From the NCBI RefSeq assembly GCF_035918015.1, contig NZ_CP109132.1, forward strand, positions 6,262,001-6,326,000: 64,000 bases of DNA, given 5' to 3'. Positions within the stretch are counted from its first letter, which is position 1, and every line of letters starts with the position of its first letter. A model generated the notes under the pieces. The model did no database searches. It saw nothing but the letters and a program-made list of their open reading frames with translations, and was not told the origin of the DNA. Made by a program: the position numbers and the translations under genes. Positions 8,396 to 22,499 of this stretch are shown piece by piece. The stretch is from Streptomyces sp. NBC_01754. Its GTDB lineage: Bacteria > Actinomycetota > Actinomycetes > Streptomycetales > Streptomycetaceae.

Positions 8396-8458
8396 GCACG
8401 CCGGAGGCCCCCGCACATGTCGACGGCCACCGCGGCTCGCCAGGGGCCGCGTCGCCGC

Positions 8459-8863
8459 TCAGTCCCGGGGCCGTACCGTACGCGGGCCGGCGCACCGGGC
8501 CCCGTACGCCTCGACCCGCCGCCGCAGTGCCCGGTCGGCCGTGACCACCACGCACGCCCGGCCGGCGTCCGGGGCCGCCTCGAAGGCCCAGCCGGCGACC
8601 AGTTCGACGATCCGGTCGTCGCCCTCGCCCGGGGCGCTCTCCACGCGCACGCCCGCCACGGAGTCCACCCCTCGGGCGGCCCCCTCGACGACCAGCACCA
8701 CCTCGAGCGGCCCGGCGAACCCCGGGAGCCCGTCCGCGGCGTACGGGACCAGCGAGTCCCGCAGCCGCTCGGCCGCCCCTCGCCGGTCCCGCCACCAGCC
8801 GTCGGGCACCGACCCGACCACGTTGGCCGCGTCGACCACGACCAGGGTGTGTTCGTCCGTCAC
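8459..8863 (-). CDS. NYN/PIN-like domain protein
   Basis: About 134 residues from GTG 8863 (VTDEHTLVVVDAANVV); a longer GTG start at 8887 adds eight residues and neither has a strong ribosome site. The pattern VVVDAANVVGS, DDRIVELV and VVVTADRALRRRVEAYGA matches NYN/PIN-type nucleases: an acidic residue in the first strand, a second acidic pair in the middle and VTADRxLxxR near the end. Streptomyces homologues are often mislabelled NTP pyrophosphohydrolase. A role in RNA cleavage is a family-level guess. Convergent with the permease; divergent from galE across 86 bases. Confidence 0.6.
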   Translation of the reverse strand: MTDEHTLVVVDAANVVGSVPDGWWRDRRGAAERLRDSLVPYAADGLPGFAGPLEVVLVVEGAARGVDSVAGVRVESAPGEGDDRIVELVAGWAFEAAPDAGRACVVVTADRALRRRVEAYGARCAGPRTVRPRD

Positions 8864-8949
8864 CCCTGAAGGGTGACACAAGGTCACCGGGGGAAAGGAG
8901 ACCGCCGTCGCGCAACCACTCCTGACATGGGCGCGGATAACATGACATC

Positions 8950-9936
8950 ATGACTTGGTTGATCACGGGTGGGGCAGGTTTCATCGGGGCGCATGTCGTC
9001 AGGGCGATGCTCGACGCAGGCGAACGGGTAGTGGTGTACGACGACTTGTCGACGGGCGATCCGAGCCGCGTGCCCGAAGGCGTGACCCTCGTCAAGGGTT
9101 CGACGCTCGACCGCCGGACGCTCGACCGGGCCCTCGCGGAGTTCGGTGTCGACGGGATCGTCCACCTCGCGGCCAAGAAGCAGGTGGCCGAGTCGGTCGC
9201 GTATCCCCTCCACTACTACAAAGAGAACGTGCAGGGCCTCCAGACACTTCTGGAGGCCGTCACGACAGCGGGAGCACGACGCTTCCTCTTCTCCTCCTCC
9301 GCCGCGGTGTACGGCCTGCCTGACGTGGAACTCGTGACGGAGCGGACTCCCTGCGAGCCGATCAACCCGTACGGGGAGACCAAGCTCGCCGGTGAGTGGA
9401 TGGTGCGGGCAGCGGGTGCCGCGCACGGCATGGCCACCGCGTCGCTGCGCTACTTCAACGTCGCGGGTGCGGCGGAACCGCGGCTGGCCGACACGGGTGT
9501 CTTCAACCTGATCCCGATGGTGTTCGAGAAGCTTACGGCCGGCCGGGCACCGGCGATCTTCGGTGACGACTACGACACGCACGACGGTACCTGCGTCCGG
9601 GACTTCATCCATGTCCAGGACCTCGCCTCCGCGCACGTCACGGTGGCGGGCGCCCTGGCCGGACGAGGAGACGGTACCGACCTCACGGTGAACATCGGCC
9701 GGGGCGAGGGAGTCTCGGTGCGCGAGATGATCAGCCTGATCGGGGAGGTCACGGGGTACGGGCCCGAGGCCGAGCCCGAGGTGGCCCCCCGTCGCCCCGG
9801 TGATCCCGCCCGAGTGGTGGCCTCCGCCGACCGTATGCGGACCGAGTTGGACTGGACGGCCCGGCAGGACGTGCGTGCGATGGTGGCCTCCGCCTGGGAG
9901 GGCTGGTGCCTGTATCACCCCGAGGCGCGCCGCTGA
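8950..9936 (+). CDS. galE: UDP-glucose 4-epimerase
   Basis: 328 residues. Short-chain dehydrogenase fold: NAD loop TGGAGFIG at the N-terminus, DDLSTGD after the second strand, HLAAKKQVAES, the serine in SSSAAVYG and the catalytic YGETK. C-terminal features (RYFNVAGA, CVRDFIHVQDLA) are those of GalE. It interconverts UDP-glucose and UDP-galactose. A second hexose or N-acetyl substrate is possible. It runs toward the glycopolymer locus, ending in a shared terminator with the LCP gene, and may supply UDP-galactose for that polymer; that link is inference from position. Confidence 0.88.
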   Translation: MTWLITGGAGFIGAHVVRAMLDAGERVVVYDDLSTGDPSRVPEGVTLVKGSTLDRRTLDRALAEFGVDGIVHLAAKKQVAESVAYPLHYYKENVQGLQTLLEAVTTAGARRFLFSSSAAVYGLPDVELVTERTPCEPINPYGETKLAGEWMVRAAGAAHGMATASLRYFNVAGAAEPRLADTGVFNLIPMVFEKLTAGRAPAIFGDDYDTHDGTCVRDFIHVQDLASAHVTVAGALAGRGDGTDLTVNIGRGEGVSVREMISLIGEVTGYGPEAEPEVAPRRPGDPARVVASADRMRTELDWTARQDVRAMVASAWEGWCLYHPEARR

Positions 9937-9946
9937 GACTGCTACG

Positions 9947-9989
9947 GGAAGCCGTCGGCACTCGCTGGGGGGCCCGCTGACGGCTTTCC
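9947..9989 (+). terminator. First hairpin after galE
   Basis: GGAAGCCGTC (from 9947) pairs with GACGGCTTTCC (to 9989), with one unpaired T in the 3' arm and a G-rich loop, ten bases after the galE stop. Confidence 0.5.
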
Positions 9990-10010
9990 GCCCGTCGGTG
10001 CGATCGGCCG

Positions 10011-10060
10011 GGCGCGGGAGAGGCTCCCGGATACGGATACCAGGGAGCCTCTCCCGCGCC
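10011..10060. terminator. Bidirectional terminator between galE and LCP gene
   Basis: Perfect 18-bp inverted repeat (10011-10028 with 10043-10060) around a 14-base loop, between two convergent genes and 21 bases from the LCP stop. It can stop transcripts from both sides. Confidence 0.8.
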
Positions 10061-10081
10061 CGGGAAGCGGGTGCAGAGGGG

Positions 10082-11170
10082 TCAGCCCCCGGTCGCCGGC
10101 GACTTCTTGGCCGATTCCGGAATCGTGGCGTCCTCCCGGAGCGCCTTCCAGAGGTCGTCGGCCTGCGGCTGCGCGGCCACCACGCGGTTCGGGTCGGCCT
10201 TGTCGTAAGCCACCGGGAGCATGATCGTTTCCATGGTGGACGGGTCCACGCCGTTCATGGACCTGGCGAACTCGGTGAGCGAGGTCAGTGACGCGAGCCC
10301 CTCGTCGGTCGTGAGCGACTTGGTGGCGGAGTTGGCGATCTTGTACGTCGTCGTCGGACTGCCCAGCAGGTCCTGCGACTTGATCTCGGTCAGCAGCGCC
10401 ATGAGGAACTGCTGTTGCAGACCGATCCGGCCGAGGTCGCTGCCGTCCCCGATGCCGTGCCGGGTCCGGACGTAGGCGAGCGACTCGGTGCCGTCCAGTT
10501 TGTGGGTGCCGGCGGTCAGGTCGAGCCCGGAGGCCTTGTCATGGATCGGCTCCTCGACATCGACGGTGACCCCGCCGATGGCGTCCACGAGGTCCTTGAA
10601 GCCGGCGAAGTTGATCTCCATGTAGTGGTCGATGCGGACGCCGGACATCTTCTCGACGGTCTTGACCACACAGGCCGGACCGACCTGCGCGTACACGGAG
10701 TTGAACATGACCCGCTCGGCGGGCGGCGTCTTCGAACCGTCGGCCTTCGTGCACTCCGGCCGCGTCACCAGCGTGTCGCGCGGGATGGAGACCGCGACGG
10801 CTTCCTGACGGCCCTCGGGGATGTGCACCACCAGCGCGGTGTCCGACCGTGCGCCGCTGACGTCGCCGCCGCCGCCCAGTTCCTTGTTCTCCGCCCCGGC
10901 GCGCGAGTCGGAGCCGAGGACGAGCAGGTTCTGGCCGGTTGTGGGCAGCTTCTCGGGACGGTCCTCGCCGAGCGCCTTGTCGATGTCGACGCTCTTGATG
11001 TTGCCGTCCAACTGGCTGTACAGCCAGTAGGCGGTGCCACCCCCGATGACCACGAGAGCGAGCAGGGTGACGAGCAGACCGCGCCGGACACGCTGTCCGC
11101 GGGTGCGCGTCTTCCGGGATCTCCGGCTCTTCGGCTTGCGGCGGGACTGCAGATCGGAGTCGTCAGACAT
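10082..11170 (-). CDS. LytR-CpsA-Psr (LCP) family glycopolymer ligase
   Basis: 362 residues, ATG 11170. A basic cytoplasmic tail rich in Arg/Lys (residues 1-30), one membrane helix (about 31-52) and an outside LCP domain: LLVLGSDSRAG, ARSDTALVVHI, AVSIPRDTLV, INFAGFKDLVDAIGGV and SLAYVRTRHGIGDGSDLGRIGLQQQFL. The Asp/Arg residues that bind the polyprenyl pyrophosphate are present (SDSR, RSDT, PRDT, RxRH, DxGR). LCP proteins move teichoic-acid-like or other glycopolymers from lipid carrier to peptidoglycan. It faces the polymer-synthesis operon on the other strand, so it is the likely ligase for that polymer. Confidence 0.88.
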   Translation of the reverse strand: MSDDSDLQSRRKPKSRRSRKTRTRGQRVRRGLLVTLLALVVIGGGTAYWLYSQLDGNIKSVDIDKALGEDRPEKLPTTGQNLLVLGSDSRAGAENKELGGGGDVSGARSDTALVVHIPEGRQEAVAVSIPRDTLVTRPECTKADGSKTPPAERVMFNSVYAQVGPACVVKTVEKMSGVRIDHYMEINFAGFKDLVDAIGGVTVDVEEPIHDKASGLDLTAGTHKLDGTESLAYVRTRHGIGDGSDLGRIGLQQQFLMALLTEIKSQDLLGSPTTTYKIANSATKSLTTDEGLASLTSLTEFARSMNGVDPSTMETIMLPVAYDKADPNRVVAAQPQADDLWKALREDATIPESAKKSPATGG

Positions 11171-11472
11171 ACACAGCTCGTCATCGTCTGGGCCCCTGGG
11201 TCAGTGGGGGACCACCGAGGCGTATCGGGTCTCCCACGTTGCCGGTCGCCAGGCCGCGGGAGGGGGGTTTACGAAGATCCGTTCGTCGTCACGCCGGGCC
11301 CCGGATCGCAAATGATCGCAAGCGAGCACCAGATGACCGCACATGTACAGATCGATCGGATGCTGGAGCACTATAGACAGATTTCCCGACCTGAAGGGAG
11401 AGTGCATATCTTCTTCGGATGCCGGGACGTATCTGAACTCCCGGTTTCGCTTCAGAAGGGATTGCCGGGCGC
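11171..11472. other. Divergent promoter region, no gene
   Basis: 302 bases between the divergent LCP gene and the PIG-L-like gene. Locally AT-richer around 11310-11440, as expected for two promoters. I see no reading frame with a credible start and no clear repeat. Confidence 0.5.
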
Positions 11473-13044
11473 ATGGCACGCAGAACGGGGCGCGGAAGGG
11501 TGATGTCCGAGGCGGAGCCGCGCTCGGCATCCGGTGCCGGATCCGTGGCGATCGTGGTGGCCACACCGGGAGACGCCCTGGCACTGCTGGCGGCCGAGCG
11601 TCCTGGTGCGGTTGTGGACATCGTGTGCGCGCAGCCGGGCACGGTGGATGAACACGCCGCGCTCGACCGGGCCGTGGCCGACTGCGGCCGGCTCGGCGTG
11701 CGTGTCGGAGGAGAGCCGTGGATCCTGGATGCCGAAGTGGGGAAGATCACAGCTCGAGTCCTCGACGTCTTGCGGGAGTTGCGTCCACTCCGCGTGCGCA
11801 CGCTCGATCCTGATCCGGCCCGTGTCTCGTTCGACGAGCAGACCAAGCTTCCGGTGATCGCGGAGCCCCCGCTGAGGGGCAGTGTGGCGCGCGCCACGAT
11901 CGAAGCCGCCCGCACCCTCCAGAGGGAAAGCGGGATTCCCGTCTTCGTGCTCTGTCACCGGGCGGGCGTGGACCCGCGCCTGGGGGCTCATGCGTGCATG
12001 CGGTATCCGCAGTCGGCTCGCTGGCTCACCAAGGGGTCCGACGGCCTGCTGTCGGCCTACCTGCCCTCCGCCGCGGGCGTACTGCGCTGGACCGAACGGC
12101 CCGAGGCGGATCGCTGGAGCGGGCCCGAACTGCTCGAAGTCCCCGGTCTGCTTCCCGGTGTCACGGTGGTCCAGGACGCGTCCGGGTACGTGCACCTGAT
12201 CGGTCTGCGGCGCGTCAAGCGCGGCGACGGGCACGAGCGCGTCGAGGTCGTTCACTCCACGCAGTACCAGACCGGACGGCCTCTCGGCCCCTGGCACTCG
12301 GCCGGCAACCCCAACGCCAACGACCGGCACCGGGCGCGCGAGGTCGGCTTCCCGTCGGTGGCTTTCGACGCGCAGGGCAACATGCATGTCTTCGTGCGCA
12401 ATTTCGGTCACGGTGTGAGCACCCGGAAGCAGTCCCCGGACGGCAAGTGGGGTGCCTGGCAGCACCTTCGGGGAATCAGGGTCGCCGACGAACTGGCCGC
12501 GTTGCCCGGCAGGCTCGGTGGTGTGGAGCTGTGGGCCAGGACCCGCGACTCCGCGGCGGCCGTGCGCTGGCACCAGGAGGCACCGGGGGGTGAGTGGGCG
12601 GAAGAGGCCGTTCTGGCCGTGAGCCCCTACCCCGGCAGCCTCTCGGCGGCGCCGGAGGCCGGAACGGTCCGGTACAGGTACTCAGGGACCAACGAGGTGT
12701 GCGTCTGGGTGCCGGGCGCCTCCCCGGTGAGCTTGGGCGGGGCGGACGGCGAGGGCCCGGTCGGGGCCGCCCAGGGGGTGGGCGTCCAGGGCTGGGAGTG
12801 CACGGTGGTCGTCAGGTCGGGGCGGGACGGGGCCTGCGCGGTCGGGGCGCACGCGGACGGTCGGCCTCACGGCGGCGTCTGGTGGTTCGACGCCGGTGAG
12901 GCCTCCCTGGTGCCTCCCGCCGTGGCCACCGACCGGCGCGGACGGGCGATCATCGCCGTGATGGACGTGAACGGCCGACTGAAGGTGGCCCGTCAGGAAC
13001 CTGATGCGAACGGCCTGGCATTCGGTGCGTGGAGTGACGCCTGA
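11473..13044 (+). CDS. PIG-L-like domain with degenerate metal site, plus beta-propeller-like C-terminus
   Basis: Up to 523 residues. ATG 11473 has AGAAGGG ten bases before; ATG 11503 is also possible and closer to the conserved start. The N-terminal half follows the PIG-L/LmbE deacetylase pattern (VAIVVATPGDA, VVDIVCAQPG, DRAVADCGRLGV, LRVRTLDPDP), but the metal-binding AHPDD is ATPGDA and the later HxxH is not recognisable. About residues 170-520 carry repeated W-x-x-W and aromatic-Gly motifs (GPWHSAGNPNAN, FPSVAFDAQGNMHVFVRN, GAWQHL) like sialidase- or lectin-type propellers attached to Streptomyces PIG-L proteins. No signal peptide or membrane helix seen. It starts the plus-strand side of the glycopolymer locus; a sugar-binding or scaffold role is inference. 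Confidence 0.55.
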   Translation: MARRTGRGRVMSEAEPRSASGAGSVAIVVATPGDALALLAAERPGAVVDIVCAQPGTVDEHAALDRAVADCGRLGVRVGGEPWILDAEVGKITARVLDVLRELRPLRVRTLDPDPARVSFDEQTKLPVIAEPPLRGSVARATIEAARTLQRESGIPVFVLCHRAGVDPRLGAHACMRYPQSARWLTKGSDGLLSAYLPSAAGVLRWTERPEADRWSGPELLEVPGLLPGVTVVQDASGYVHLIGLRRVKRGDGHERVEVVHSTQYQTGRPLGPWHSAGNPNANDRHRAREVGFPSVAFDAQGNMHVFVRNFGHGVSTRKQSPDGKWGAWQHLRGIRVADELAALPGRLGGVELWARTRDSAAAVRWHQEAPGGEWAEEAVLAVSPYPGSLSAAPEAGTVRYRYSGTNEVCVWVPGASPVSLGGADGEGPVGAAQGVGVQGWECTVVVRSGRDGACAVGAHADGRPHGGVWWFDAGEASLVPPAVATDRRGRAIIAVMDVNGRLKVARQEPDANGLAFGAWSDA

Positions 13045-13287
13045 TCCGGACGAGAGGCCCTCGCCGTCCGCCCCGATCCGGACATACGATCACTTTTGTC
13101 ACCAATTGGTCTAGTCCAAGGTTTGGCGGTTTCCGATTGTCTTTGACCTTGCTAAGGTCTCGCTCTGTCTTTATGTGAACCACGGATGAACGATCTGTGT
13201 GCGTGAAGTGAATGCCCCCTTGACCGCGCTCGTGCTCACAAGCCGTTGGGGCCGTGTCGCTCACTGGTACGCCAGGGCTGAGGGGTT
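13045..13287 (+). promoter_or_regulatory. Promoter region of the glycopolymer operon
   Basis: 243 bases without a gene and clearly AT-richer than the surroundings. Holds ACCAATTGGT at 13100-13109 and the inverted repeat GACCTT-GCT-AAGGTC at 13145-13159; TTGACC inside it could also be a -35 box. Probably the main promoter for 13288-20448. Operator identity unknown. Confidence 0.5.
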
Positions 13288-14451
13288 ATGGGGAAGCTGT
13301 CACTGCGGGCTGTTCAAAAACTGACGTGCAAGAAGCGCGACGCCTGGTGGACAGTCATGCTCGTCGACCCCGTGGCGACGCGCATGCTCATCGGCATGGC
13401 CAAGTTCAAGTTCATCACTCCGAACCGGGTCACCTGGGCGGCACTCTTCGTGGGCCTCGGGTCCGCCTACTTCTTCCTTCAGGGTGATCCGGTGTCGCTC
13501 GCCATCGGGGCGGGGCTCTACCACCTGAGCTTCATCTTCGACTGCATCGACGGCAAGCTGGCCCGTCTCAAGGGCAACGGCACGGTCTTCGGCGGCTGGC
13601 TCGACTACGTCTTCGACCGCATCAGGGTGCTGTTCTGCGCCCTCGCCCTGATGGGCGGTCAGTACCTGCGTACGCACAGCGAGTACTACCTGCTCGCCGC
13701 GCTGGCCGTTGTCTTCCTGGACATGCTCAGGTACGTCGACGCCCTGCAGATCTACAAGATGCGCATGTCCATGCGCATGAAGATCGAGAAGGTCACCCTG
13801 GAGCGCAAGGCAGCCGAAGAGGCGCAGGAGGAAGCGGTCGCCCCGGCCGGGGTGGAACACGAGCCCAAGGTCGTCTTCATCGAGGACCTGCTGAGGGAGA
13901 ACCCCGGGGTCGAGGCCGACGTGCTCAAGCAGCAGAGCGGCGCCGTGATCGACCTGCACGCCCAGTTCCGGCACCGCTTCCCCTGGTACACCCGTTTCCG
14001 CCAGGCGCTGCTGCGGAGCCGGATCAGACCACACCTCATCAGCGGCATCGAGTTCCAGATGTTCATCTTCATCGTGGGCCCCCTGATCGGCCAGATCCTG
14101 TGGACCACCGCGGTGTCCGCGGTGGCTCTGGGACTCTTCGAACTCGTGATCATGTACAAGTTCTGGCTCTCCACGCGCGACTTCACCCGCCTCATGGAGA
14201 AGCTCGCTCCTGAACCGTCCACGGCCGGGACCATCGCCGATCACCTCCACCGCGGACGCCACCGCCGTGCGGGCGAGCCGGTCGAGGAGCGGGGCACCGG
14301 CCTGACGCAGCAGTTCCCGGTCCCCGAGCAGGACGACGACCTGGGCTTCCAGCCCTACCCCCAGCCTTATCCGCACCATGTCCAGGACACCGAGACCCAG
14401 CAGCTCAGGACCTTGCCCTACTGGGTCGAAACCGAAGGGTCGGTGCGATGA
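13288..14451 (+). CDS. CDP-alcohol phosphatidyltransferase-family membrane protein
   Basis: 387 residues, ATG with GAGGGG just before it. The full family motif DG(x)2AR(x)8G(x)3D(x)3D is present from DGKLAR (about residue 91) to DYVFD, so the metal site and catalytic base look intact. Six or so membrane helices are spread over residues 45-150 and 245-290, interrupted by a long charged cytoplasmic part (about 155-235). The C-terminal 80 residues are hydrophilic and Pro/Gln-rich. The family moves a phospho-alcohol from a CDP-alcohol to a lipid or sugar alcohol. Here, beside a glycerophosphotransferase, it may make a lipid primer or a CDP-activated alcohol acceptor. The stop overlaps the next start (ATGA). 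Confidence 0.8.
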   Translation: MGKLSLRAVQKLTCKKRDAWWTVMLVDPVATRMLIGMAKFKFITPNRVTWAALFVGLGSAYFFLQGDPVSLAIGAGLYHLSFIFDCIDGKLARLKGNGTVFGGWLDYVFDRIRVLFCALALMGGQYLRTHSEYYLLAALAVVFLDMLRYVDALQIYKMRMSMRMKIEKVTLERKAAEEAQEEAVAPAGVEHEPKVVFIEDLLRENPGVEADVLKQQSGAVIDLHAQFRHRFPWYTRFRQALLRSRIRPHLISGIEFQMFIFIVGPLIGQILWTTAVSAVALGLFELVIMYKFWLSTRDFTRLMEKLAPEPSTAGTIADHLHRGRHRRAGEPVEERGTGLTQQFPVPEQDDDLGFQPYPQPYPHHVQDTETQQLRTLPYWVETEGSVR

Positions 14452-17400
14452 GTTCGGCAGTCGACCCGGCGGACTTCAGGATCTCCGTCGTCGTTCCCGC
14501 GTACAACGCCGGCGCGACTCTGGGCCGCGCCCTGAAGTCCGCGCTCGCCCAGACGCACCGAAACGTCGAGGTGCTCGTCGTCGACGACGCGTCGGCCGAC
14601 GGAACGCTGGGCGTGGCACAGGAGTTCGCGGCAGCCGACCCGCGCGTTCGGATCATCGGGCGCCCGCAGAACAGTGGCGGCGTCGGAGCCCCGCGCAACA
14701 ACGGCATCATGGCCGCGACGGGCCAGTACGTGATGTTCCTGGACGCGGACGACGAGCTCCCGCTCAAGGCCTGCGAGGAACTGCTCGCCTCGGCTGTGGC
14801 CACGGGTTCCGACATCACCGCGGGGAGGGCCCTGCGAGTCAACCTCAACACGGAGGAGACCACGGTCTGGCAGCCGCAGCTCTACGCCGCACCGCGTACG
14901 GTGGCCGGGCTGCGGGCACTGCCCCAGCTCTTCGACGACCCGATCGCGGCAGGCAAGCTGTACCGGCTCGACTTCCTGCACAACAACGGAGTCCGGTTCC
15001 CCGAGGGCGTCTACTACGAGGACACGTACTTCTCGACACTGGCCAACTACCGGGCCGGCTCGATCACCTTCCTCACCACCCCCGTGTACCGCTGGATGTG
15101 GGAACGCGAATCCGCCGCGCCCTCCATCACGAACCGTCGCGGCGAGCTGCGCAGCATTCAGGACAGGGTCGCCGTCCACCAGTACACGGACTCCTTTCTG
15201 CGTCAGGTGGGGGAGTACGAACTCCTCGCGCACAAAGCCGTGAAGTTCCTCTCCCACGACCTGCATCTGTACGCGCGCGAACTGCGCTCCGGCGACGAGC
15301 GGTACCGGCAGGGCTTCGCTGCGGTCGTGGCACCGTATCTGCGTTCTCTGGAGCCCTCGGTCTACGACCTGTGCGGTGTGCTGGAGCGGGTCCGCGCCTT
15401 CTGCCTCATGCACGAGCGGGTCGATCTGGCCCTGTCCGTCTCGGACTACTCGCAACGCCGGAGCGTGCTCAGCTCGGACCTCGTCGAGCGTGACGGACGC
15501 GTCCACTGGTCGGAGTCGCTGCTCCACCTCCCCCAGGCGGAACGCTTCCTCGACGTCACGGACCTCGACCTCACGGACAAGCCGCTGGCCGACGCACGGC
15601 TGTTCAACCAGGCGACGGAGGTGGAGATCCGGGGCGGCGAACTGCACCTGTCCGGACACCTGCTCAATCAGTTCGGCAGGTTCTCCACCGGTGGCAAGCC
15701 CGAGCTCAAGGCCGTGCTGCGGCTGCGCAGCACCAAGAGCGATCACGTCTTCCCCGTCAACGCGGTCGAGACGGACGACCACCGTGTTCACTACCAGTCG
15801 GTCCTCGACCTCGCGGGCAGCCTGGGGGCGGCCACCGGCGAAGGCGTCTGGAACCTGTTCGTCCAGGTACGTCACGCCGGCGAGCGCGCCACCACGACCG
15901 TGGCGGTCCACGGAGTCGACATCACCCGTGAGCGCTACCAGGGCCCGGCCGGGACGTACGAGATGTACGAGACGGTCAGTGGAAACATCGCCCTGCGGCC
16001 GGAGACCGGAGAGCGCACCGCCCTGGAAACCCGCAGGGGGACCCCCTGGAACTGGTGGCACGGCACCGAGGACCCACCGCCGATCGGCCAGGCCGGTGCC
16101 TACCGCGTGGCGGTCGTCGTTCACTGCCGTAATGACGAACACCATCTGAACGACTCGCTGCGTTCGCTGGCGGCCCAGAGTGTGTTCGCGCAGACGCAGA
16201 TCGTGTTCGCCGACGACGGCTCCACCGACCGGACGGCCGAACTTCTGGACAACTTCGCCGCCTACTATCGCAACGCCGTCGTGGTGCGGCTTTCCGGGCA
16301 GGGCGCCGCAGCCGCCTACGAGCGCGGGCTCGCCGAAGTCGTCGCCCCCTATGTGCTGTTCGCCAGGGGACGCGACGTCCTCGGTGCCGAAAGCCTGCGA
16401 CAGCTCACCGAATCGGCCGCCAAGCACAAGGTGGACGTGGTCATCGGCAACTACGACACGTTCCCGGGCCCGCGCCGCAACGCCGATGAGCCGTGGAAGC
16501 GGTACTTCGGCGACGGCGCCAAGGGCCGGACCGATCTGGTGACCAGAGCACCGCACATGGTCTTCTCGATCGACCTGGGGAACAAGCTCTTCCGCGTCTC
16601 GCTGCTGCGTGACCACGGGATACGGCCGGCGGACGGAGGCCCGTTCGCCGAGACATGGGTCAGCCTGCTCGCCATGCTGACCGCCCGGACCTTCGGCACG
16701 GTCGACCGGTACGTCTACTTCGAACGCGATCCCGCTCAGAACGACTCGCTCTTCGACCTCGACTGGAACGACCCGGCCAAGGTCCGCCAGCGGCTCCGGC
16801 TCAACCGGTACCTGCTGGACTACGCCGACCGGCTGGATGAGCCGGCGGCTCTCCTGGTCCAGCGCTTCGTGGTGCGCTCGTACCAGCCGTACCTGCGCAA
16901 CTACCACCGCATCATGAACCGGACGGAGATCGCGGACGCCTTCGAGGACCTCTGCGCCGTCTACGCCCGGATTCCGGAGAAGATACTCCTCCAGTACGTG
17001 ACGCACCCCGTTTCCCGGATTCAGCACCACGCGGTCCGCACCGGAAACTTCTCCCTGTTCTGCGATCCGTTCGCCACGGCCGAGTACGAGCCGTTCCTCC
17101 GGCTGGACGACCGGGGGGTGTACCGCCGGCTCGCCGCCGACGGCGTGGAGTCCAGCCTGCTTCGGGTGGAGCGCCAGAAAGCCGTACTCGAAAGCGTGCG
17201 CTACCGGGACGACGAGCTCCAGTTCGAGGGTGTGATGACCCTCTCGGGCGTGGACATCTCCCAGTTGTTCACGAACCGCATCGAGCTGGTGTGCACCGAC
17301 GGGGCCGGCAGCGTGGCGATCCCCGTCGAGCAGGTGTACCGGCGCGACCGATGGCGCGTCCGGAAGGAACGGGACTGGTACGGGGGGTGGCGCGCTGCGG

Positions 17401-18950
17401 CGACACCCGCGGTGCTCACCAGGCTCTCCGGCCGCGAACTCACGGTGACGCTGCGCTTCCACGACGGCGACCGCCACGTCGACGCCCCGGTCAGCGCACG
17501 ACTGATGCTGCACCGCTTCAAGGGGATGCGCAGGATCGGCGGTGACTGGCTGTGGCTCGGCGTCCGCAACGACGACTCCGTGGTCTTCCGCTACTTCACC
17601 GGTGCCGGCCGGAAGCTGCGGGGCCGTCTGTGGCATCTGCGGCGCCAGGCGCGAGCCGCGCTCCCCGGCCGGCCGGGCTGGCGTACCCGTCTGGCCTATG
17701 TTCTGAGCTATCCGCGGCTCCACCGGAAGGACATCTGGATCATCGGCGAGCGGGCCGACACGGCGCAGGACAACGCCTACCACCTGTTTCGGTGGATCAG
17801 GGAGAACCAGCCGCGCCGGAAGGTCTATTACGCCATCAACGGTGATGCCGGGGACCGGGCCAAGGTGGCTCCCTACGGCCGTGTCCTGGACCGTACCTCG
17901 CGTAAGTACCGGATGTACCTGCTGCACGCCAAGCGGCTCATCAACCCGTACGACCTGGAGGCGTACCTCGGATTCCCCGAACTCAGCAAGAGTTCCTTCC
18001 TGCGTGGCTACGGAGATCTGCTGGACTACCGCAGGGTCTTCCTCCAGCACGGCGTCACCTACAACGACGTGGCGCCGTCGGTACACCAGCAGGTCACCGA
18101 CGTGGACCTGCTGCTCACCGTCGGCGAGGCGGAGCGTTCGTACTTCGCCGAGCACTGCGGGTACGGCTTCGCGCGGGTCGCGGCAGCGGGCTTCCCCCGG
18201 TTCGACGCTCTGCGGCCCGTGCGGACCGGCCGGCCGAGGGTCCTTCTGATGCCCACGTGGCGGAGGGACATCGTCGCCCCTTCGTACGACCGGGCGGCCA
18301 AGGCGAAGATCCCGTTCGCCGCGTCGGAGTACTTCCGGTTCTTCTCGACCCTGCTACGCGACGAGCGCCTGCTCGGTGTGCTCGAACAGTGCGGGGTGGA
18401 ACTGGAGTTCATGCCGCACTACGAGATCCGCCCCTACCTGCACCACTTCCGCATCGACCACCCGTCGGTGACCGTGACCGGCGACGGGAGGGATGTGCAG
18501 CTGGCCATGCGCGAGTGCTCGCTCCTCGTCACCGACTACTCATCGGTCTTCTTCGACGTCGCCTACATGGGCACACCCATCGTGTACACGCCGTTCGACG
18601 AGGAGGACTTCTACGGCAACCACTACAAGCGCGGCTACTACGAGTTCGAGCGGGACGGCTTCGGCCCGGTCTGCCGTGACGTCGATGCGACGGTGCGGGA
18701 GATCATCGGGACCATCGAGCGGAACTTCGCCATGGAGCCGCAGTACCGGGCACGGGTCGACGCCTTCTTCGGCCGCCGGGACACGGGCAACTCGGAACGG
18801 GTGTTCCACGCCATCGACGGACTCGAGTCGGCGGTCGGGAGCAGCTGGGTACCGGATGCGCCGTCGAGCACGCGGGGCGCGCTCGACGCCGACCGGGGCT
18901 TCGGTGACGAAGGCCGTCACGGCCGGGATCCCAGCAAGGAGTGGGCGTAG
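14448..18950 (+). CDS. Multidomain GT2 glycosyltransferase / CDP-glycerol glycerophosphotransferase fusion
   Basis: 1500 residues. Order: GT-A family 2 domain (about 11-250; VVVPAYNAG, VVDDASADG, metal motif DADD at 99-102); beta-rich region (about 390-540); second GT-A-like domain (about 550-780; VVVHCRNDEHHL, FADDGSTDRTAEL) where the aligned metal motif reads ARGRD at 639-643; second beta-rich region (about 860-1040); and a TagF/TarF-like transferase (about 1090-1470; IWIIGERADTAQDN, LQHGVTYND, LLMPTWR, FMPHYEIRP, TDYSSVFFD). No membrane segment seen. It could both glycosylate and extend a poly(glycerol/polyol phosphate) chain at the inner membrane face. Overlaps the upstream gene by 4 bases and the downstream start by 1. 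Such fusions replace several Tag/Tar enzymes; substrates are unknown. Confidence 0.85.
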   Translation: MSSAVDPADFRISVVVPAYNAGATLGRALKSALAQTHRNVEVLVVDDASADGTLGVAQEFAAADPRVRIIGRPQNSGGVGAPRNNGIMAATGQYVMFLDADDELPLKACEELLASAVATGSDITAGRALRVNLNTEETTVWQPQLYAAPRTVAGLRALPQLFDDPIAAGKLYRLDFLHNNGVRFPEGVYYEDTYFSTLANYRAGSITFLTTPVYRWMWERESAAPSITNRRGELRSIQDRVAVHQYTDSFLRQVGEYELLAHKAVKFLSHDLHLYARELRSGDERYRQGFAAVVAPYLRSLEPSVYDLCGVLERVRAFCLMHERVDLALSVSDYSQRRSVLSSDLVERDGRVHWSESLLHLPQAERFLDVTDLDLTDKPLADARLFNQATEVEIRGGELHLSGHLLNQFGRFSTGGKPELKAVLRLRSTKSDHVFPVNAVETDDHRVHYQSVLDLAGSLGAATGEGVWNLFVQVRHAGERATTTVAVHGVDITRERYQGPAGTYEMYETVSGNIALRPETGERTALETRRGTPWNWWHGTEDPPPIGQAGAYRVAVVVHCRNDEHHLNDSLRSLAAQSVFAQTQIVFADDGSTDRTAELLDNFAAYYRNAVVVRLSGQGAAAAYERGLAEVVAPYVLFARGRDVLGAESLRQLTESAAKHKVDVVIGNYDTFPGPRRNADEPWKRYFGDGAKGRTDLVTRAPHMVFSIDLGNKLFRVSLLRDHGIRPADGGPFAETWVSLLAMLTARTFGTVDRYVYFERDPAQNDSLFDLDWNDPAKVRQRLRLNRYLLDYADRLDEPAALLVQRFVVRSYQPYLRNYHRIMNRTEIADAFEDLCAVYARIPEKILLQYVTHPVSRIQHHAVRTGNFSLFCDPFATAEYEPFLRLDDRGVYRRLAADGVESSLLRVERQKAVLESVRYRDDELQFEGVMTLSGVDISQLFTNRIELVCTDGAGSVAIPVEQVYRRDRWRVRKERDWYGGWRAAATPAVLTRLSGRELTVTLRFHDGDRHVDAPVSARLMLHRFKGMRRIGGDWLWLGVRNDDSVVFRYFTGAGRKLRGRLWHLRRQARAALPGRPGWRTRLAYVLSYPRLHRKDIWIIGERADTAQDNAYHLFRWIRENQPRRKVYYAINGDAGDRAKVAPYGRVLDRTSRKYRMYLLHAKRLINPYDLEAYLGFPELSKSSFLRGYGDLLDYRRVFLQHGVTYNDVAPSVHQQVTDVDLLLTVGEAERSYFAEHCGYGFARVAAAGFPRFDALRPVRTGRPRVLLMPTWRRDIVAPSYDRAAKAKIPFAASEYFRFFSTLLRDERLLGVLEQCGVELEFMPHYEIRPYLHHFRIDHPSVTVTGDGRDVQLAMRECSLLVTDYSSVFFDVAYMGTPIVYTPFDEEDFYGNHYKRGYYEFERDGFGPVCRDVDATVREIIGTIERNFAMEPQYRARVDAFFGRRDTGNSERVFHAIDGLESAVGSSWVPDAPSSTRGALDADRGFGDEGRHGRDPSKEWA

Positions 18951-19726
18951 TGCGGCGGCTGCGCAGAGTCTTCCTGGCGGGTGACTCGAGTGTGACCAGC
19001 AGACAGCGCAGCTTCGCGCCCATGGCGGGCTGGGGTCAGGCTCTGCCCCTCTTCATCCCCTCTGCCGAGGTCATCAACTGCGCTCGTGCGGGCGCCAGTT
19101 CACGTAGCTTCATGGAACGCGGCAGGATGGCCTGGATCCTGCGTGAGGCCCAGCCGGGTGACCTGGTCCTGTTGTCGTTCGGGTTGATCGACATGAAGCC
19201 GGACGAGGGCCGCCACACCGAACCCTTCAAGGAGTACCAGCGCCGGCTTCGCGGCTGTGTGGACGGTGTGCGTGGACGCGGCGCCCACCCGGTCCTCGTG
19301 ACCAGTCATGAGCGCAGGGTCTTCGACGCGCAGGGCAACCTGCGGCGGCTGCTCGGTGTGTATCCGCTGGCGATGAGGGAGGTCGCGGTGGAGAAGTCCG
19401 TACCGCTGATCGACCTGAACGAGTGGAGCGTGCGCCGGTGGCGCGAGGCCGGCCCGGAAGGCACACGGCGCATCTTCCTCTACCTCGCCCCTGGGGAACA
19501 TCCCAACTATCCCGAGGGCGTGGCCGACAACACGCACCTCAAGGTCGACGGAGCGATCGAGTGCGCGCGCTTCATCGCCCGTGAACTCCGGGACCGCTCG
19601 ATGCTGGAACCGGGTTGCTTCGCCGACCTGGAGCGCCTCGACCACTCGGAGGACGGCGTCGAGTGGCTGGAGGAAGACGTCTTCGACGAACTGGTGCGGA
19701 CCCGGACCCTGGAGACCGTCGAATGA
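18950..19726 (+). CDS. SGNH/GDSL hydrolase, rhamnogalacturonan-acetylesterase-like
   Basis: 258 residues from GTG 18950, with CAAGGAG about eight bases before it; the G is shared with the previous stop. Block I is AGDSS (Ser13), block II GASSRSF, and the C-terminal DxxH dyad is DNTH (193-196), so nucleophile, Asp and His are kept. In block III the usual G-x-N-D reads FGLID (77-81): the oxyanion-hole Asn is Ile. The remaining sequence (PFKEYQRRL, HPVLVTSHERRVFD, GEHPNYPEGVADNTH) follows the CE12 acetylesterase pattern. No signal peptide, so it is probably cytoplasmic and acts on a precursor or as an acyl transferase. Part of the overlapping operon (ATGA with the next gene). Confidence 0.75.
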   Translation: MRRLRRVFLAGDSSVTSRQRSFAPMAGWGQALPLFIPSAEVINCARAGASSRSFMERGRMAWILREAQPGDLVLLSFGLIDMKPDEGRHTEPFKEYQRRLRGCVDGVRGRGAHPVLVTSHERRVFDAQGNLRRLLGVYPLAMREVAVEKSVPLIDLNEWSVRRWREAGPEGTRRIFLYLAPGEHPNYPEGVADNTHLKVDGAIECARFIARELRDRSMLEPGCFADLERLDHSEDGVEWLEEDVFDELVRTRTLETVE

Positions 19727-20448
19727 GTGACTGGCATCTGTTGGCCCACATCCAGGTCGCGCACCCGGAGCGCACAGCGGTGTCCGCGGTCCTCGACCTC
19801 CATGCCGACACCGACCCCGCGGCCCCGGTGGTACCAGGCCAGGAAATCGCCCTGCATCTACAGGTGCTGCCCTCGGGCGACCCCTATCGGGCGTACGGCT
19901 ACATCTTTGACGACGTCGTGGCCGAGCACGCCACGATGGCCCAGTCGCACGGACTCGGACACCTTCCCAACGGCCGGTTCGCGACCTACGCGAGCGGGAA
20001 CGAGCCGAGGGCGGTGACCGCCGTGCTCAAGGTGAACGACGATGCCCCCGAGGGTGCGGTCCTCCTCCCCAAGGTGTGCGTGGGCGTGATGTCGTACGCG
20101 GGAGAGAAGCTGGTGTCGTCCGCCCAGATCACCGACGCGGGCTTCCGGGTGCGCCGTGTCTGGGTCCCCGGCCGCAGCCTGTCCGTTCCGCCCGGTGGAT
20201 ACGCGGTCATCGGCCCCGACCGGGACGCCACCGAAGCGGGTCTGAGAGTGGTCGGGGTGGGGCTCCCGCAGGCGGGCACGGTGAGCGCCGCGCCGGACGG
20301 CAGCATCACGTACACGGGAGTGCCGGGGGCGGTCGGCTACGACCGCTTCTCCGTCTGCTACGAGAACGCGGCGGGTCACCGCAACTGGTCCGAGGTGACC
20401 GTGTACGCGGGGGACATCGGTACGAACCCCGGAGTCCTCGCGGGATGA
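19723..20448 (+). CDS. Unknown beta-rich protein of glycopolymer operon
   Basis: 241 residues; ATG inside the stop of the SGNH gene (4-base overlap). I do not recognise a family. There is no signal peptide and no hydrophobic helix. Residues 1-140 form alternating strands with several His/Asp (DVVAEHATMAQSHGLGHL). Residues 150-235 resemble an Ig- or cadherin-like sandwich (PPGGYAVIGPD, ITYTGVPGAVGYDRFSVCYE, SEVTVYAGD), like repeats usually found on secreted proteins. Tight coupling to the SGNH hydrolase suggests that the two work together. It ends the operon. Confidence 0.6.
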   Translation: MSDWHLLAHIQVAHPERTAVSAVLDLHADTDPAAPVVPGQEIALHLQVLPSGDPYRAYGYIFDDVVAEHATMAQSHGLGHLPNGRFATYASGNEPRAVTAVLKVNDDAPEGAVLLPKVCVGVMSYAGEKLVSSAQITDAGFRVRRVWVPGRSLSVPPGGYAVIGPDRDATEAGLRVVGVGLPQAGTVSAAPDGSITYTGVPGAVGYDRFSVCYENAAGHRNWSEVTVYAGDIGTNPGVLAG

Positions 20449-20556
20449 GGCGTCGCCCGGCCGTGGGTTCCACCCCCGCACCGCTCGCGCGTGCACGGGA
20501 TTCCGTCGCCCCCGCGCCCGTGTGCGGTGGCGCAGCGCACGGCACCGACGCCGAAC

Positions 20557-20625
20557 CGCCTGATCAGGCGTTCGCGCCGGCCGACAAGGGTGGCGTAACA
20601 CTGGCGTAACGCGGTTCTGGTTAAC
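20557..20625 (+). promoter_or_regulatory. Candidate operator cluster before the GntR gene
   Basis: Three elements in the gap before the regulator: palindrome CGCCTGATCAGGCG (20557-20570); a tandem repeat of TGGCGTAAC at 20591-20599 and 20602-20610 (11-base period, one helical turn); and GGTTAAC at 20619-20625, directly against the start codon. GntR/HutC-type proteins often bind such sites in their own promoters, so autoregulation is plausible. Confidence 0.45.
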
Positions 20626-21429
20626 GTGGACGGCATGAACCACGGGGTGGAGCGGGTGGGGGACGGCAGCGGTCCAGCCGGCGGATGGGTGTCGTCGCGG
20701 CCCCGGGCCGAGCGGGCGCGCCGGGTCGCCGATGTGCTGCGGCAGCAGATCGGCGAGGGCGGGTTCGGCGGCGGTAGGCTGCCGGACGAACGAGCCCTCG
20801 GCCGGCAGTTGGGGGCTTCCCGTAACGCGGTCCGTGAAGCACTGGGCCTCCTGCGGAGGGAGGGTCTGATCACGCGGCGGCGCGGGGTGGGCACCACGGT
20901 GGTGATGCCCAAGTACGGGCAGGGACTGGACCGGCTGGCGGGGCTGGCCGAGGCACTGGCCGGTCACGGGACGGTGACCAACCAGGTGCGGGTGGCCGAG
21001 GAGGTAGCCGTCCTGCCGGACGCCGTCGCCGCCCGTCTGGAGGTGCCCGCCGAGGCGGGCGGGGTGCGTCTGGAGCGCGTCAGGTGGTTGAACGGCCTGC
21101 CCTTGTCGCTGGACACCAGCTATCTCCCCGCCGATGTCGGAGCTGCGGTGCTCGCCGGTGACCTGGTGGGCCGGGACGTGTTCGGCCTGATCGAAGAGGC
21201 CACCGGCTGCCGGCTCGGACGCGCCGACGTCGTCGTGCACGCCGTGTGTGCCGACCCCGACACCGCCGCGCTGCTGGGCATTCCGGCCGGAGCCGCGGTG
21301 TTCGCCCTGGAACGGCTGACCCGCCTGACGGACGGCCGCGCCGTCGACACGGAATCGATCCATGTCCGCGCGGACCGCATGACCTTGCGGGCCACGCTGC
21401 AACGCGGCCTGCCGCCCGCCGCGACCTGA
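20626..21429 (+). CDS. GntR-family (HutC/UTRA) transcriptional regulator
   Basis: 267 residues from GTG 20626, or 264 from ATG 20635; neither has a ribosome site, so the mRNA may be leaderless. The N-terminal winged helix (about 25-95) shows the GntR pattern: VADVLRQQI, LPDERALGRQLGASRNAVREALGLLRREGLI. The C-terminal UTRA-type effector domain (about 105-260) contains VRLERVRWLNGLPLSLDTSYLP and AVFALERLTRLTDG. It probably senses a small metabolite. The transporter gene 50 bases downstream on the same strand is the likely target, so this may be a regulator-exporter pair. Ligand unknown. Confidence 0.82.
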   Translation: MDGMNHGVERVGDGSGPAGGWVSSRPRAERARRVADVLRQQIGEGGFGGGRLPDERALGRQLGASRNAVREALGLLRREGLITRRRGVGTTVVMPKYGQGLDRLAGLAEALAGHGTVTNQVRVAEEVAVLPDAVAARLEVPAEAGGVRLERVRWLNGLPLSLDTSYLPADVGAAVLAGDLVGRDVFGLIEEATGCRLGRADVVVHAVCADPDTAALLGIPAGAAVFALERLTRLTDGRAVDTESIHVRADRMTLRATLQRGLPPAAT

Positions 21430-21478
21430 CCGCGCCCGCCCGGCCGTCCGCTCCTCACCTTCCTCGCAGGAGATCGTC

Positions 21479-21538
21479 ATGTCTGTGCTGTGCCCTTCGC
21501 CGTCCCCACACCGTGGCCACGCGCGGGGGGACCGGTGA
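21479..21538 (+). CDS. Possible 19-residue leader ORF coupled to the TauE-like gene
   Basis: ATG 21479 follows GCAGGAG by six or seven bases, the best ribosome site in the gap, and reads MSVLCPSPSPHRGHARGDR before TGA at 21536-21538. That stop overlaps a GTG (21535) in the frame of the transporter. It is basic, with Pro, His and one Cys. A short upstream ORF that delivers ribosomes to the exporter is the simplest reading; a frameshifted true N-terminus is the alternative. Confidence 0.4.
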   Translation: MSVLCPSPSPHRGHARGDR

Positions 21539-22305
21539 CGGCCGGGCTGAGCGTGCCGGTGCTGATCGCGCTCGGCCTGTTCGGGCTGATCGGCGGTGTG
21601 GGGATCACCGCTGTGGGCCCCGGAGGCGTGCTGCCGACCATCGCCCTGTTCGCCCTGACCGATCTGACGCCGGCCCAGGTGGCCGGCACGGCCATCGTCA
21701 CCCATGTGGCGACCGGGGTGGTGGCCACCGCCGCCTACACCCGGTCCGGGCAACTGCGTCAACCCCGGCCCCGGCGTACGGCGCTGATCCTGTCCGCGGC
21801 CGCGGTACTCGGCACCCCGCTCGGTGTGATGATCAATACGCTGGTGTCCGAGCGGGTCTTCGGGCTGGTGCTGGCGGTGTTCGTGGCGGGCGTGGCCGCC
21901 CTGGTGTGGTACCGCGAGCGCCACCCTCCGGCCGCCGCCCCGTGGACGCATCCGCCCGCCGCCCTGGTGGCCGTGCTGGGACTGGCCGTGGCCGTCGCGG
22001 CGGGCATCGTCGGCATCGGTGGTCCGATGCTCACCGTTCCCCTGCTGGTCGCCCTGGGCGTGCCCGTGCTGGAATCCCTCGCCTCCGCCCAGGCCCAGTC
22101 GGTCGTCATCGCCGCGGTGGGCACCGTGGGCTACCTCGCCCATGACGCCATCAACTGGCCCCTGGCCGCCCTGGTCGGCATCCCCGAACTCGCCGGGGTG
22201 CTGCTGGGCTGGAAGATCGCCCACGCACTGCCCACGCGCACCCTCAAGTACGCCCTGATCACCACCCTGTTCGCACTCGCCCCCTACCTCGCCCTGCACG
22301 GCTGA
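21535..22305 (+). CDS. TauE/SafE-family membrane transporter
   Basis: 256 residues from GTG 21535; a longer in-frame GTG at 21490 would give 271 but lies 17 bases from the ribosome site and adds only a Pro-rich tail. Seven to eight membrane helices. The two family repeats are visible: GLIGGVGITAVGPGGVLPTIAL near the start and AGIVGIGGPMLTVPLLVALGVP around residue 150. The family exports sulfite, sulfoacetate and related organosulfur anions. Here the substrate is unknown; the upstream GntR regulator suggests induction by a metabolite. Ends toward fadB, with a shared hairpin between. Confidence 0.8.
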   Translation: MTAGLSVPVLIALGLFGLIGGVGITAVGPGGVLPTIALFALTDLTPAQVAGTAIVTHVATGVVATAAYTRSGQLRQPRPRRTALILSAAAVLGTPLGVMINTLVSERVFGLVLAVFVAGVAALVWYRERHPPAAAPWTHPPAALVAVLGLAVAVAAGIVGIGGPMLTVPLLVALGVPVLESLASAQAQSVVIAAVGTVGYLAHDAINWPLAALVGIPELAGVLLGWKIAHALPTRTLKYALITTLFALAPYLALHG

Positions 22306-22448
22306 CCACGGGACCGCCGGAGGGGAACGGGGTCAGCCGAACCCGGCTCCGGCGATCATCGCTGTACGGCTGGTGACCGACCGGCTCCGGAACCAGCCCC
22401 GACCTGCGACGACAGGCGTGGACCAGGCCCGTTCGCACGTCGCGAACA

Positions 22449-22478
22449 GGGCCGTACAGGCAGATGCCCGTACGGCCC
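22449..22478. terminator. Terminator between TauE-like gene and fadB
   Basis: GGGCCGTAC (22449-22457) pairs with GTACGGCCC (22470-22478), with three more inner pairs (GGC/GCC), between two convergent genes and 21 bases from the fadB stop. Confidence 0.65.
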
Positions 22479-22499
22479 CGTCCGTTCACGAATCCACGG

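Follow-up and report, generated by a model that had tools for sequence, protein, structure and literature searches.

The capsule (cps-type) loci of other bacteria carry alternative cassettes between fixed flanking genes. In Streptomyces, the genes behind the wall polymers are poorly mapped. The SCO2997 type of S. coelicolor represents the GT2-TagF proteins of wall teichoic acid clusters, and the S. coelicolor locus for poly(diglycosyl 1-phosphate) (PDP) presumably corresponds to the obg/proBA region. The work on PdtA and SCO2997 is cited here through the review PMC7831098 and the later paper PMC11481543. PMC3196553 describes a lipoteichoic acid (LTA) in Streptomyces that resembles its wall teichoic acid (WTA), proposes a shared pathway for both, and reports actinobacteria with no clear LtaS orthologue. 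A search of a limited body of literature found no paper on the locus described below, the slot between dxs and fadB, and passages of PMC10117723 and PMC13011467 contain nothing on it.

The window, that is, the whole stretch of DNA analysed, comprises 64,000 nt of Streptomyces sp. NBC_01754 (GCF_035918015.1, NZ_CP109132.1, positions 6,262,001-6,326,000, forward strand). Its relevant features are the following:

8396..22499, no strand: variable slot between an amino-acid permease gene (6917-8395) and fadB (22500-24704)
8950..9936, + strand: GalE (UDP-glucose 4-epimerase), TIGR01179 above cut-off
10082..11170, - strand: LCP glycopolymer ligase, PF03816
11473..13044, + strand: weakly PIG-L-like N-domain plus PLL-type lectin propeller, a slot resident
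13288..14451, + strand: CDP-alcohol phosphotransferase (CDPOH), 387 aa, motif intact
14448..18950, + strand: GT2-GT2-TagF fusion gene, 1500 residues
14448..15437, + strand: fusion domain 1 (residues 1-330), GT2 with DxD (LDADD) and ED
16068..17087, + strand: fusion domain 2 (residues 541-880), degenerate GT2
17628..18857, + strand: fusion domain 3 (residues 1061-1470), TagF-type, PF04464
18941..19726, + strand: SGNH-type protein
19723..20448, + strand: two-Ig-domain protein, from a structure model

The four overlapping genes of the preliminary description, assigned to a CDPOH, a GT2-GT2-TagF fusion, an SGNH hydrolase and a beta-rich protein, are real and tightly coupled, their overlapping starts are conserved, and the beta-rich product is modelled as Ig-like. 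A promoter scan of the operon gave no match, the type of scan being one that may not suit Streptomyces. An antisense ORF of 1245 aa (14418-18155, - strand) was discarded as a high-GC artefact, and third-position GC did not choose it. Of the 31 loci that have a fusion ORF, ten seemed to encode a CDPOH-fusion mega-protein of 1800-1963 aa. This was likewise rejected, as an out-of-frame extension, because match starts put the two genes one frame apart (distance mod 3 = 2) in eight named loci, as in the window; the arithmetic covered these eight, the other two being L124, from the same genome as L047, and L127.

The fusion is found in 11 of 150 same-genus genomes, its own included, and at least 81 GT2-GT2-TagF rows (P0121-P0201, with the window and one row truncated at 1165 aa) are among the 120 matches listed of 284. 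Domain 1 has its DxD as LDADD, LDSDD or VDADD in 80 of the 81 listed rows, the remaining one being gapped there. Domain 3 scores 104 bits against PF04464 (cut-off 22.1) and has the motifs HG, PTWR, PHYE and TDYSS in 81/81 listed rows; two histidines are catalytic in TagF-type enzymes. Domain 2 is the least conserved part of the fusion (mean identity 0.439 to 80 listed homologues), and it still falls within the GT2 fold, matching PF00535 in two stretches. In the window its DxD is replaced by ARGRD and its ED pair by AET. The DxD is gone from 60 of the 81 listed rows, the window among them (44 have neither Asp and 16 keep the first); the other 21 and the outgroup retain it, and parsimony counts two losses. 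The ED pair of GT2 enzymes has a role near the acceptor site, and among the listed rows it is kept in 34 of the 44 of the window's clade, where both Asp are gone, and in none of the 16 others. The fusion had been described as three transferases; its length and GT2-GT2-TagF architecture stand, and, because domain 2 lacks DxD, its motifs indicate probably two active enzymes, not three, although the ED pairs retained in the window's clade leave room for some activity of domain 2.

The CDPOH carries an intact PF01066 motif, DxxDGxxAR(x8-9)GxxxDxxxD, which is kept in 30/30 rows: the window and 29 of 30 related loci, three of which come from a genome already represented. Its nearest NCBIfam families are inositol-phosphate types, with scores far under their cut-offs, and its nearest structures include CDP-diacylglycerol-inositol phosphatidyltransferase and AF2299. 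The family occurs in 33 of the 150 same-genus genomes, and the fusion is absent from 22 of these 33, so the CDPOH need not serve the polymer of the fusion. The fusion-less relatives are 48-61% identical; the neighbourhoods of 19 of the 22 were clustered and the proteins of eight were read, and the gene sits mostly amid unrelated, largely housekeeping genes that give no clear functional hint. At locus L107, by cluster and by eye, the CDPOH gene adjoins obg, a NAGPA-family protein and an acyltransferase-like protein.

The SGNH-type protein keeps the Ser and the DxxH of its family, with block III changed from GxND to GLID. In 26 rows (L126 and L128 repeating L035 and L033) the Ser and His are always present, and in 12, the window included, Ile replaces the block III Asn. 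The Ser, Gly, Asn and His set (blocks I, II, III and V) that marks an SGNH hydrolase is therefore incomplete in the window. An alternative GTG start lies at 18947. In its structure model (pLDDT 87.6) the neighboring protein has two Ig-like beta-sandwich domains in tandem, and its matches are of a generic Ig type. By hydropathy the former has no hydrophobic leader and the latter is soluble, and both are apparently cytosolic. Their genes are missing from the named type-A loci L034, L047 and L051.

The comparison of gene order that the preliminary description had called for shows the operon to be one among a number of alternative cassettes that occupy a hypervariable slot, flanked by dxs and the amino-acid permease gene on one side and by fadB/fadA on the other. 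Slot length ranges from 533 to 17451 bp in 78 same-genus loci, and three neighboring intervals reach at most 918 bp. Inserts are of type A, PgsB/CapC, Stealth, TarIJ-type, GT2-TagF and NeuB/polysialyltransferase-type, so that, as in capsule loci, unrelated predicted polymer cassettes swap between fixed flanks in related strains. Envelope-polymer markers occur in 35 of 37 inserts above 6 kb, a count to be read with the facts that the markers derive partly from loci later typed with them and that the control is the three neighboring intervals; for the 60 loci added once the markers had been fixed, the figure is 18 of 19 large inserts. The type-A set consists of LCP, propeller, CDPOH, fusion, SGNH and Ig genes; in 20 named Streptomyces loci, both flanks being in view at 17, LCP is found in 20, CDPOH in 19, and SGNH and Ig in 17. 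On a tree built from fadB alone, with 36 of its 74 inner branches starred, the 7 rows of type A require 7 changes (6 when starred branches alone are counted). All cassette types together require 35, where shuffling gives a mean of 34.6, so they are scattered as if random. An independent-pairs test on this tree, preferred to a Fisher p because the latter ignores kinship, gave 8:0 with 5 ties (p 0.008).

Both an LCP ligase and a PIG-L-like protein had been said to flank the operon, and the first assignment is upheld, with 164.8 bits for PF03816 and 197 bits for TIGR00350, both above cut-off, and an N-terminal hydrophobic stretch at 30-51. LCP is present in 26/26 glycopolymer-type inserts, 1/9 pure PgsB/CapC inserts and 6/41 short slots; by this co-occurrence the gene belongs to the cassette, and the contrast of 26/26 with 1/9 supports ligation of the polymer to peptidoglycan. 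No LCP gene lies within the 20 kb fetched at the type-A loci L119, L220 and L221, which are outside the slot census, L220 sitting in the dxs-fadB slot itself. The second flanking product is mainly a PLL/PHL-type lectin propeller behind an N-domain weakly similar to a true PIG-L (12 bits), with no Pfam hit, PF02585 included, and ATPGDA where HPDD is expected; its gene is found in 35/37 large and 31/41 short slots.

The operon differs from a standard tag/tar wall teichoic acid operon, as had been noted: a scan of the genes between 52 and 25918 found none for TagO/TagA priming, CDP-polyol synthesis or a TagGH exporter. The pathway had also been called nearly complete, which does not hold, since other parts of the genome encode a TarIJ-type protein and a candidate exporter of the ABC-2 type. 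No CTP:glycerol-3-phosphate cytidylyltransferase in the genome scored above its cut-off.

We consider it rather likely that the operon is the core of the type-A cassette at a hypervariable Streptomyces envelope-polymer locus, and we infer its enzymatic steps, donor, product and export route as follows. GT2 domain 1 would add sugar to a membrane-bound acceptor, which the degenerate domain 2 may hold or position with little or no catalysis. The TagF-type domain would add or polymerise an alcohol-phosphate, its CDP-alcohol being supplied by genes elsewhere, and the membrane CDPOH would transfer an alcohol-phosphate group onto a lipid-side acceptor, as primer or cap. The SGNH-type and Ig-domain proteins could act as accessories, and the chain, once moved out by an exporter encoded elsewhere, would be joined to peptidoglycan by the LCP protein of the flank. 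The product had been proposed to be a polyol-phosphate surface polymer; a phosphate-containing surface glycopolymer is the best reading of the sequence, because the TagF-type and CDPOH motifs are intact and LCP tracks such cassettes at the slot, and 'polyol' and the polymer chemistry are conjectural.

It could also be argued that the cassette is a local variant of PDP synthesis and that the type-A set can occupy either chromosomal place, which we regard as unlikely. The type-A fusion and CDPOH do lie beside obg in two genomes, with galE adjacent; by gene names assigned by eye, proB/proA adjoin them as well at L221. GalE is found with 6 of the 33 type-A loci, which come from 29 distinct genomes, and with the window, versus 1 of 80 others, and PDP contains galactose (PMC7831098). 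GalE, an occasional cassette companion, is however absent from 27 of the 33 type-A loci. Because PDP is built of sugar-1-phosphate units, another phosphotransferase family would be expected to make it.

Less probable still is a lipid-anchored, lipoteichoic-type polymer, in which the fusion lengthens a phospholipid primer made by the CDPOH, while LCP serves another polymer. This is favoured by the Streptomyces LTA, the proposed pathway shared with WTA and the lack of a clear LtaS orthologue (PMC3196553), and it agrees with the phosphatidyltransferase and AF2299 among the structures near the CDPOH and with the three LCP-less type-A loci; on the other hand, LCP, a family of peptidoglycan ligases, goes with the glycopolymer cassettes and hardly with pure PgsB/CapC, and the fusion cannot be a general LTA route because so few same-genus genomes have it. 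The slot might instead be an insertion hotspot of a general kind, where envelope genes are found only because they are often mobile and the four genes share no common product. This would fit the shuffled cassette types, the partly circular markers judged against a control limited to neighboring intervals, and two inserts above 6 kb with no search marker (L138 and L191), but it is the least likely reading in view of the later-fetched inserts, the UDP-sugar dehydrogenase and GT2 encoded by L138, the conserved overlapping starts, and neighboring intervals with no insert above 0.92 kb.

The operon thus probably represents a single allele of a surface-polymer locus that is hypervariable and serotype-like. 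More broadly, with chances only slightly better than even, dxs-fadB may be a genus-wide Streptomyces switching locus at which chemically unrelated pathways replace each other (Stealth sugar-phosphate and NeuB/polysialyltransferase-type polymers, poly-gamma-glutamate, GT2 glycans, and TagF-type phosphoglycans, whose enzymes may or may not include a dead second GT2), LCP travels with the phosphoglycan types, and turnover fits selection by phages or neighbors on surface receptors. If true, one slot of alternative cassettes would account for some of the polymer variety seen from strain to strain. It would also allow the genus to be "serotyped" by sequence and bring questions of phage receptors and host range down to a single locus where they can be tested. 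The repeated loss of DxD in a fused GT2 is a natural case of an enzyme domain perhaps turned scaffold.

Among known systems, the PDP/PdtA locus of S. coelicolor (SCO2578-SCO2592) also has genes for a surface phosphoglycan close to an LCP ligase (PMC7831098), a likeness drawn by description; the type-A sets beside obg recall its region, whereas the cassette studied here occupies a different chromosomal slot. The wall teichoic GT2-TagF of the SCO2997 type likewise joins a GT2 and PF04464 in one protein, and the fusion of the operon differs by the extra degenerate GT2 between them. The genome itself has five PF04464 genes at 2.68-2.70 Mb (one of the five Pfam-checked), and the best fusion matches in 12 other same-genus genomes, 30-40% identical, cover GT2 domain 1 with or without the linker. 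The GT2-TagF proteins of Micromonospora, Actinoplanes and kin are 32-34% identical over fusion residues 480-1480 (18 listed rows); they are about 910 aa long, with no counterpart of the first GT2, and keep the DxD in 18/18 listed. With cps-type capsule loci the slot shares fixed flanks, alternative polymer cassettes and an LCP ligase, and it differs from them in lying in Streptomyces and in having cassettes that span unrelated chemistries, such as PgsB/CapC.

Four genes on the plus strand at 13288-20448 of the window (G000:C1:6262001-6326000, in a genome of 7.77 Mb) form a tightly coupled operon, with overlaps of 4, 4 (or 10) and 4 bases between successive genes.

Operon and upstream neighbours
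10082-11170, minus strand: LCP (glycopolymer ligase) gene, upstream of the operon
11473-13044, plus strand: gene for the 523-aa propeller protein, upstream of the operon
13288-20448, plus strand, gene 1: CDP-alcohol phosphotransferase, 387 aa
13288-20448, plus strand, gene 2: fusion protein, 1500 aa, with two PF00535 stretches and a PF04464 domain
13288-20448, plus strand, gene 3: SGNH-type protein, 261 aa
13288-20448, plus strand, gene 4 (likely start ATG 19723): Ig protein, 241 aa

Downstream lie GntR- and TauE-family genes, followed by fadB and the thiolase gene fadA. Antisense to the fusion gene, the 1245-aa open frame at 14418-18155 (minus strand) was taken as a high-GC artefact.

This arrangement, termed type A, was compared with 20 named Streptomyces loci (L033-L052) found with the fusion as query. 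All 20 carry LCP and a relative of the propeller protein, although five of them (L036, L042, L045, L047, L049) have the propeller gene on the opposite side of LCP. The phosphotransferase is present in 19 (missing in L046), SGNH and Ig genes together in 17 (missing in L034, L047, L051), and both flanks of the slot, amino-acid permease and fadB, are visible in 17 (exceptions L042, L044, L050). In 18 of the 20, the downstream gene clusters with a protein of the phosphodiester-glycosidase family (PF09992; scanned in one member), a position held in the window by the GntR/TauE-family genes instead. Operon coupling is largely kept in relatives: junction 1 is -4 in 13 of 19 loci computed, junction 2 lies between -10 and +13 in 17 loci, and junction 3 is -4 in 16 of 17. 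The fusion is rare, being found in 11 of 150 same-genus genomes and 6 of 101 genomes of the family, own genome included in both; a first look at 12 other same-genus genomes gave no full-length match. Throughout, the same genus means Streptomyces, as judged from the nearest full-length matches. In L034, L051 and the protein pair P0017/P0128, the phosphotransferase is 84-85% identical to that of the window and the fusion only 60-64%; the disparity suggests that recombination took place between these two genes.

A homologue search with fusion residues 480-1480 gave 284 matches, 120 of which were listed; 81 of these (P0121-P0201, the window's protein included, one row truncated to 1165 aa) span GT2-GT2-TagF. 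Among these listed rows, GT2 domain 1 keeps its DxD in 80, the remaining row being gapped, and the TagF-type domain has its HG, PTWR, PHYE and TDYSS motifs in all 81. In GT2 domain 2, DxD is retained in 21 rows and gone in 60, of which 44 (the window's clade) lack both Asp residues and 16 keep the first only. The ED pair of this domain persists in 34 of the 44, the window's protein not among them, and in none of the 16. Conservation, too, is lowest in domain 2, whose mean identity to the window protein is 0.439; domain 1 reaches 0.650 and the TagF domain 0.657. In Micromonospora and its kin, single GT2-TagF proteins match the second half of the fusion, with DxD in 18 of 18 listed rows. With six of them as outgroup, a FastTree phylogeny of residues 501-1460 gave two DxD losses by parsimony. 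The plainest reading of these alignments is that domain 2 is a catalytic domain that became structural or acceptor-binding at least twice; some activity may remain, since the ED pair in 34 of 44 rows counts against complete inactivity. Also among the matches listed is P0202, a 1200-aa relative without a listed PF04464 domain.

The permease-fadB slot was surveyed by searching fadB in 111 same-genus genomes, with 110 matched (41 of them in an initial round). From this draw, 88 neighbourhoods were fetched, comprising 80 not known to have the fusion and 8 known carriers; the other 22 genomes were the own genome, had short contigs or were not chosen. The slot was counted in the 78 loci with both flanks in the stretch. 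Among the ten left out, dxs without a permease match was seen in six, and a recognised cassette in two (L165, PgsB/CapC-type; L171, TarIJ-type with LCP). The slot is polymorphic: the interval ranges from 533 to 17451 bp (median 4736). In three nearby intervals that served as local control (67, 72 and 77 loci), no length above 918 bp occurs. Inserts above 6 kb occupy 37 of the 78 slots.

Cassette types in slot inserts above 6 kb
PgsB/CapC: 9
Stealth: 8
Type A: 8
GT2-TagF with Asp2-like gene: 3
TarIJ-type: 3
NeuB/polysialyltransferase-type: 2
TagF/TarS-linker type: 1
PgsB/CapC and GT2-TagF together: 1
No marker: 2 (L138, L191)

The first 20 loci, together with the named loci and the window, supplied the markers; among the 60 loci fetched afterwards, 18 of 19 large inserts carried one. 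Representatives were checked by Pfam and NCBIfam, the remaining members being typed by tblastn similarity only. The PgsB representative exceeds its NCBIfam cut-off (388.7 vs 222.7 bits), and the CapC, PGA_cap, NeuB, POLYST and Stealth regions of representatives all exceed those of Pfam. The term TarIJ-type refers to Pfam IspD and short-chain dehydrogenase within one protein, which falls slightly below the NCBIfam ribitol-phosphate cytidylyltransferase cut-off (163.6 vs 166). The marker-less insert of L138 has genes for a UDP-sugar dehydrogenase and a GT2, and that of L191 (9.4 kb) contains LCP. In L195 (G103 C12:557459-577458), PgsB/CapC and GT2-TagF/Asp2-like cassettes adjoin in one slot, perhaps a snapshot of ongoing replacement. 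The SGNH gene recurs in TarIJ-, TagF/TarS- and Stealth-type cassettes (L133, L140, L175, L179, L183, L184, L185), accompanied by the Ig-domain gene in L133, L140 and L175, and occurs in none of the 9 pure PgsB/CapC cassettes, a pattern that would fit an accessory module of phosphoglycan cassettes.

LCP is associated with the glycopolymer cassettes: all 26 glycopolymer-type inserts have it, compared with 1 of the 9 pure PgsB/CapC inserts (Fisher 3.8e-7, without correction for kinship) and 6 of the 41 short slots. In a fadB tree covering 77 loci, from which L122 was omitted because its piece of fadB was too short, the cassette types require 35 changes, the mean after shuffling being 34.6; type A requires 7 changes for its 7 rows. 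Among 13 independent pairs differing in glycopolymer cassette, LCP was concordant in 8, discordant in 0 and without difference in 5 (p 0.008). The ligase therefore seems to belong functionally with these cassettes, an association expected if the product is joined to peptidoglycan. Against this link, LCP was not found within the 20 kb fetched at L119, L220 and L221, type-A loci that were not part of the census; that of L220, which belongs to another genus of the family, is in the dxs-fadB slot. The propeller gene is found whatever the cassette (35 of 37 large and 31 of 41 short slots).

At a second site, in L119 and L221, divergent fusion and phosphotransferase genes adjoin obg with galE adjacent, and L221 also has proB and proA there (obg, proB and proA named by eye). 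GalE is a companion of type A in the window and in 6 of 33 type-A loci (from 29 distinct genomes), versus 1 of 80 others. The obg/proBA neighbourhood is presumably also where the PDP genes of S. coelicolor (SCO2578-SCO2592) are located. PdtA of the S. coelicolor PDP locus is among the subjects reviewed in PMC7831098. In the own genome, the region near 2.21-2.23 Mb holds genes resembling proA and proB, along with a TarIJ-type protein and a separate TagF-type gene.

In the proposed working, the CDP-alcohol phosphotransferase would put alcohol-phosphate onto a membrane acceptor, and GT2 domain 1 and the TagF-type domain would make the chain from sugar and CDP-alcohol donors, with domain 2 mostly non-catalytic. 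Exporter and nucleotide-polyol genes elsewhere in the genome would complete the pathway, the TarIJ-type protein being a candidate for the latter, and LCP would then ligate the chain. An ABC-2 exporter candidate adjoins the 2.69 Mb cluster of the own genome. Two further ABC-2 matches of equal score lie near opposite ends on opposite strands (G000:C1:87749-88387 and C1:7650415-7651053), as expected for terminal inverted repeats of a linear chromosome. No glycerol-3-phosphate cytidylyltransferase reached the cut-off in the own genome (best 66 vs 165 bits), hence a weak preference for CDP-ribitol or a similar compound as donor.

The literature search, which covered few subscription papers, returned nothing on the permease-fadB slot; PMC11481543, PMC3937824 and PMC3196553 provide general context for ligases and LTA of Streptomyces and for glycosyltransferases of wall teichoic acid. 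The parts of the cassette are known families, except for the Ig protein, which has a generic fold match only. The arrangement is what is new: a GT2-(degenerate GT2)-TagF fusion whose cassette and unrelated polymer pathways compete for one chromosomal slot.
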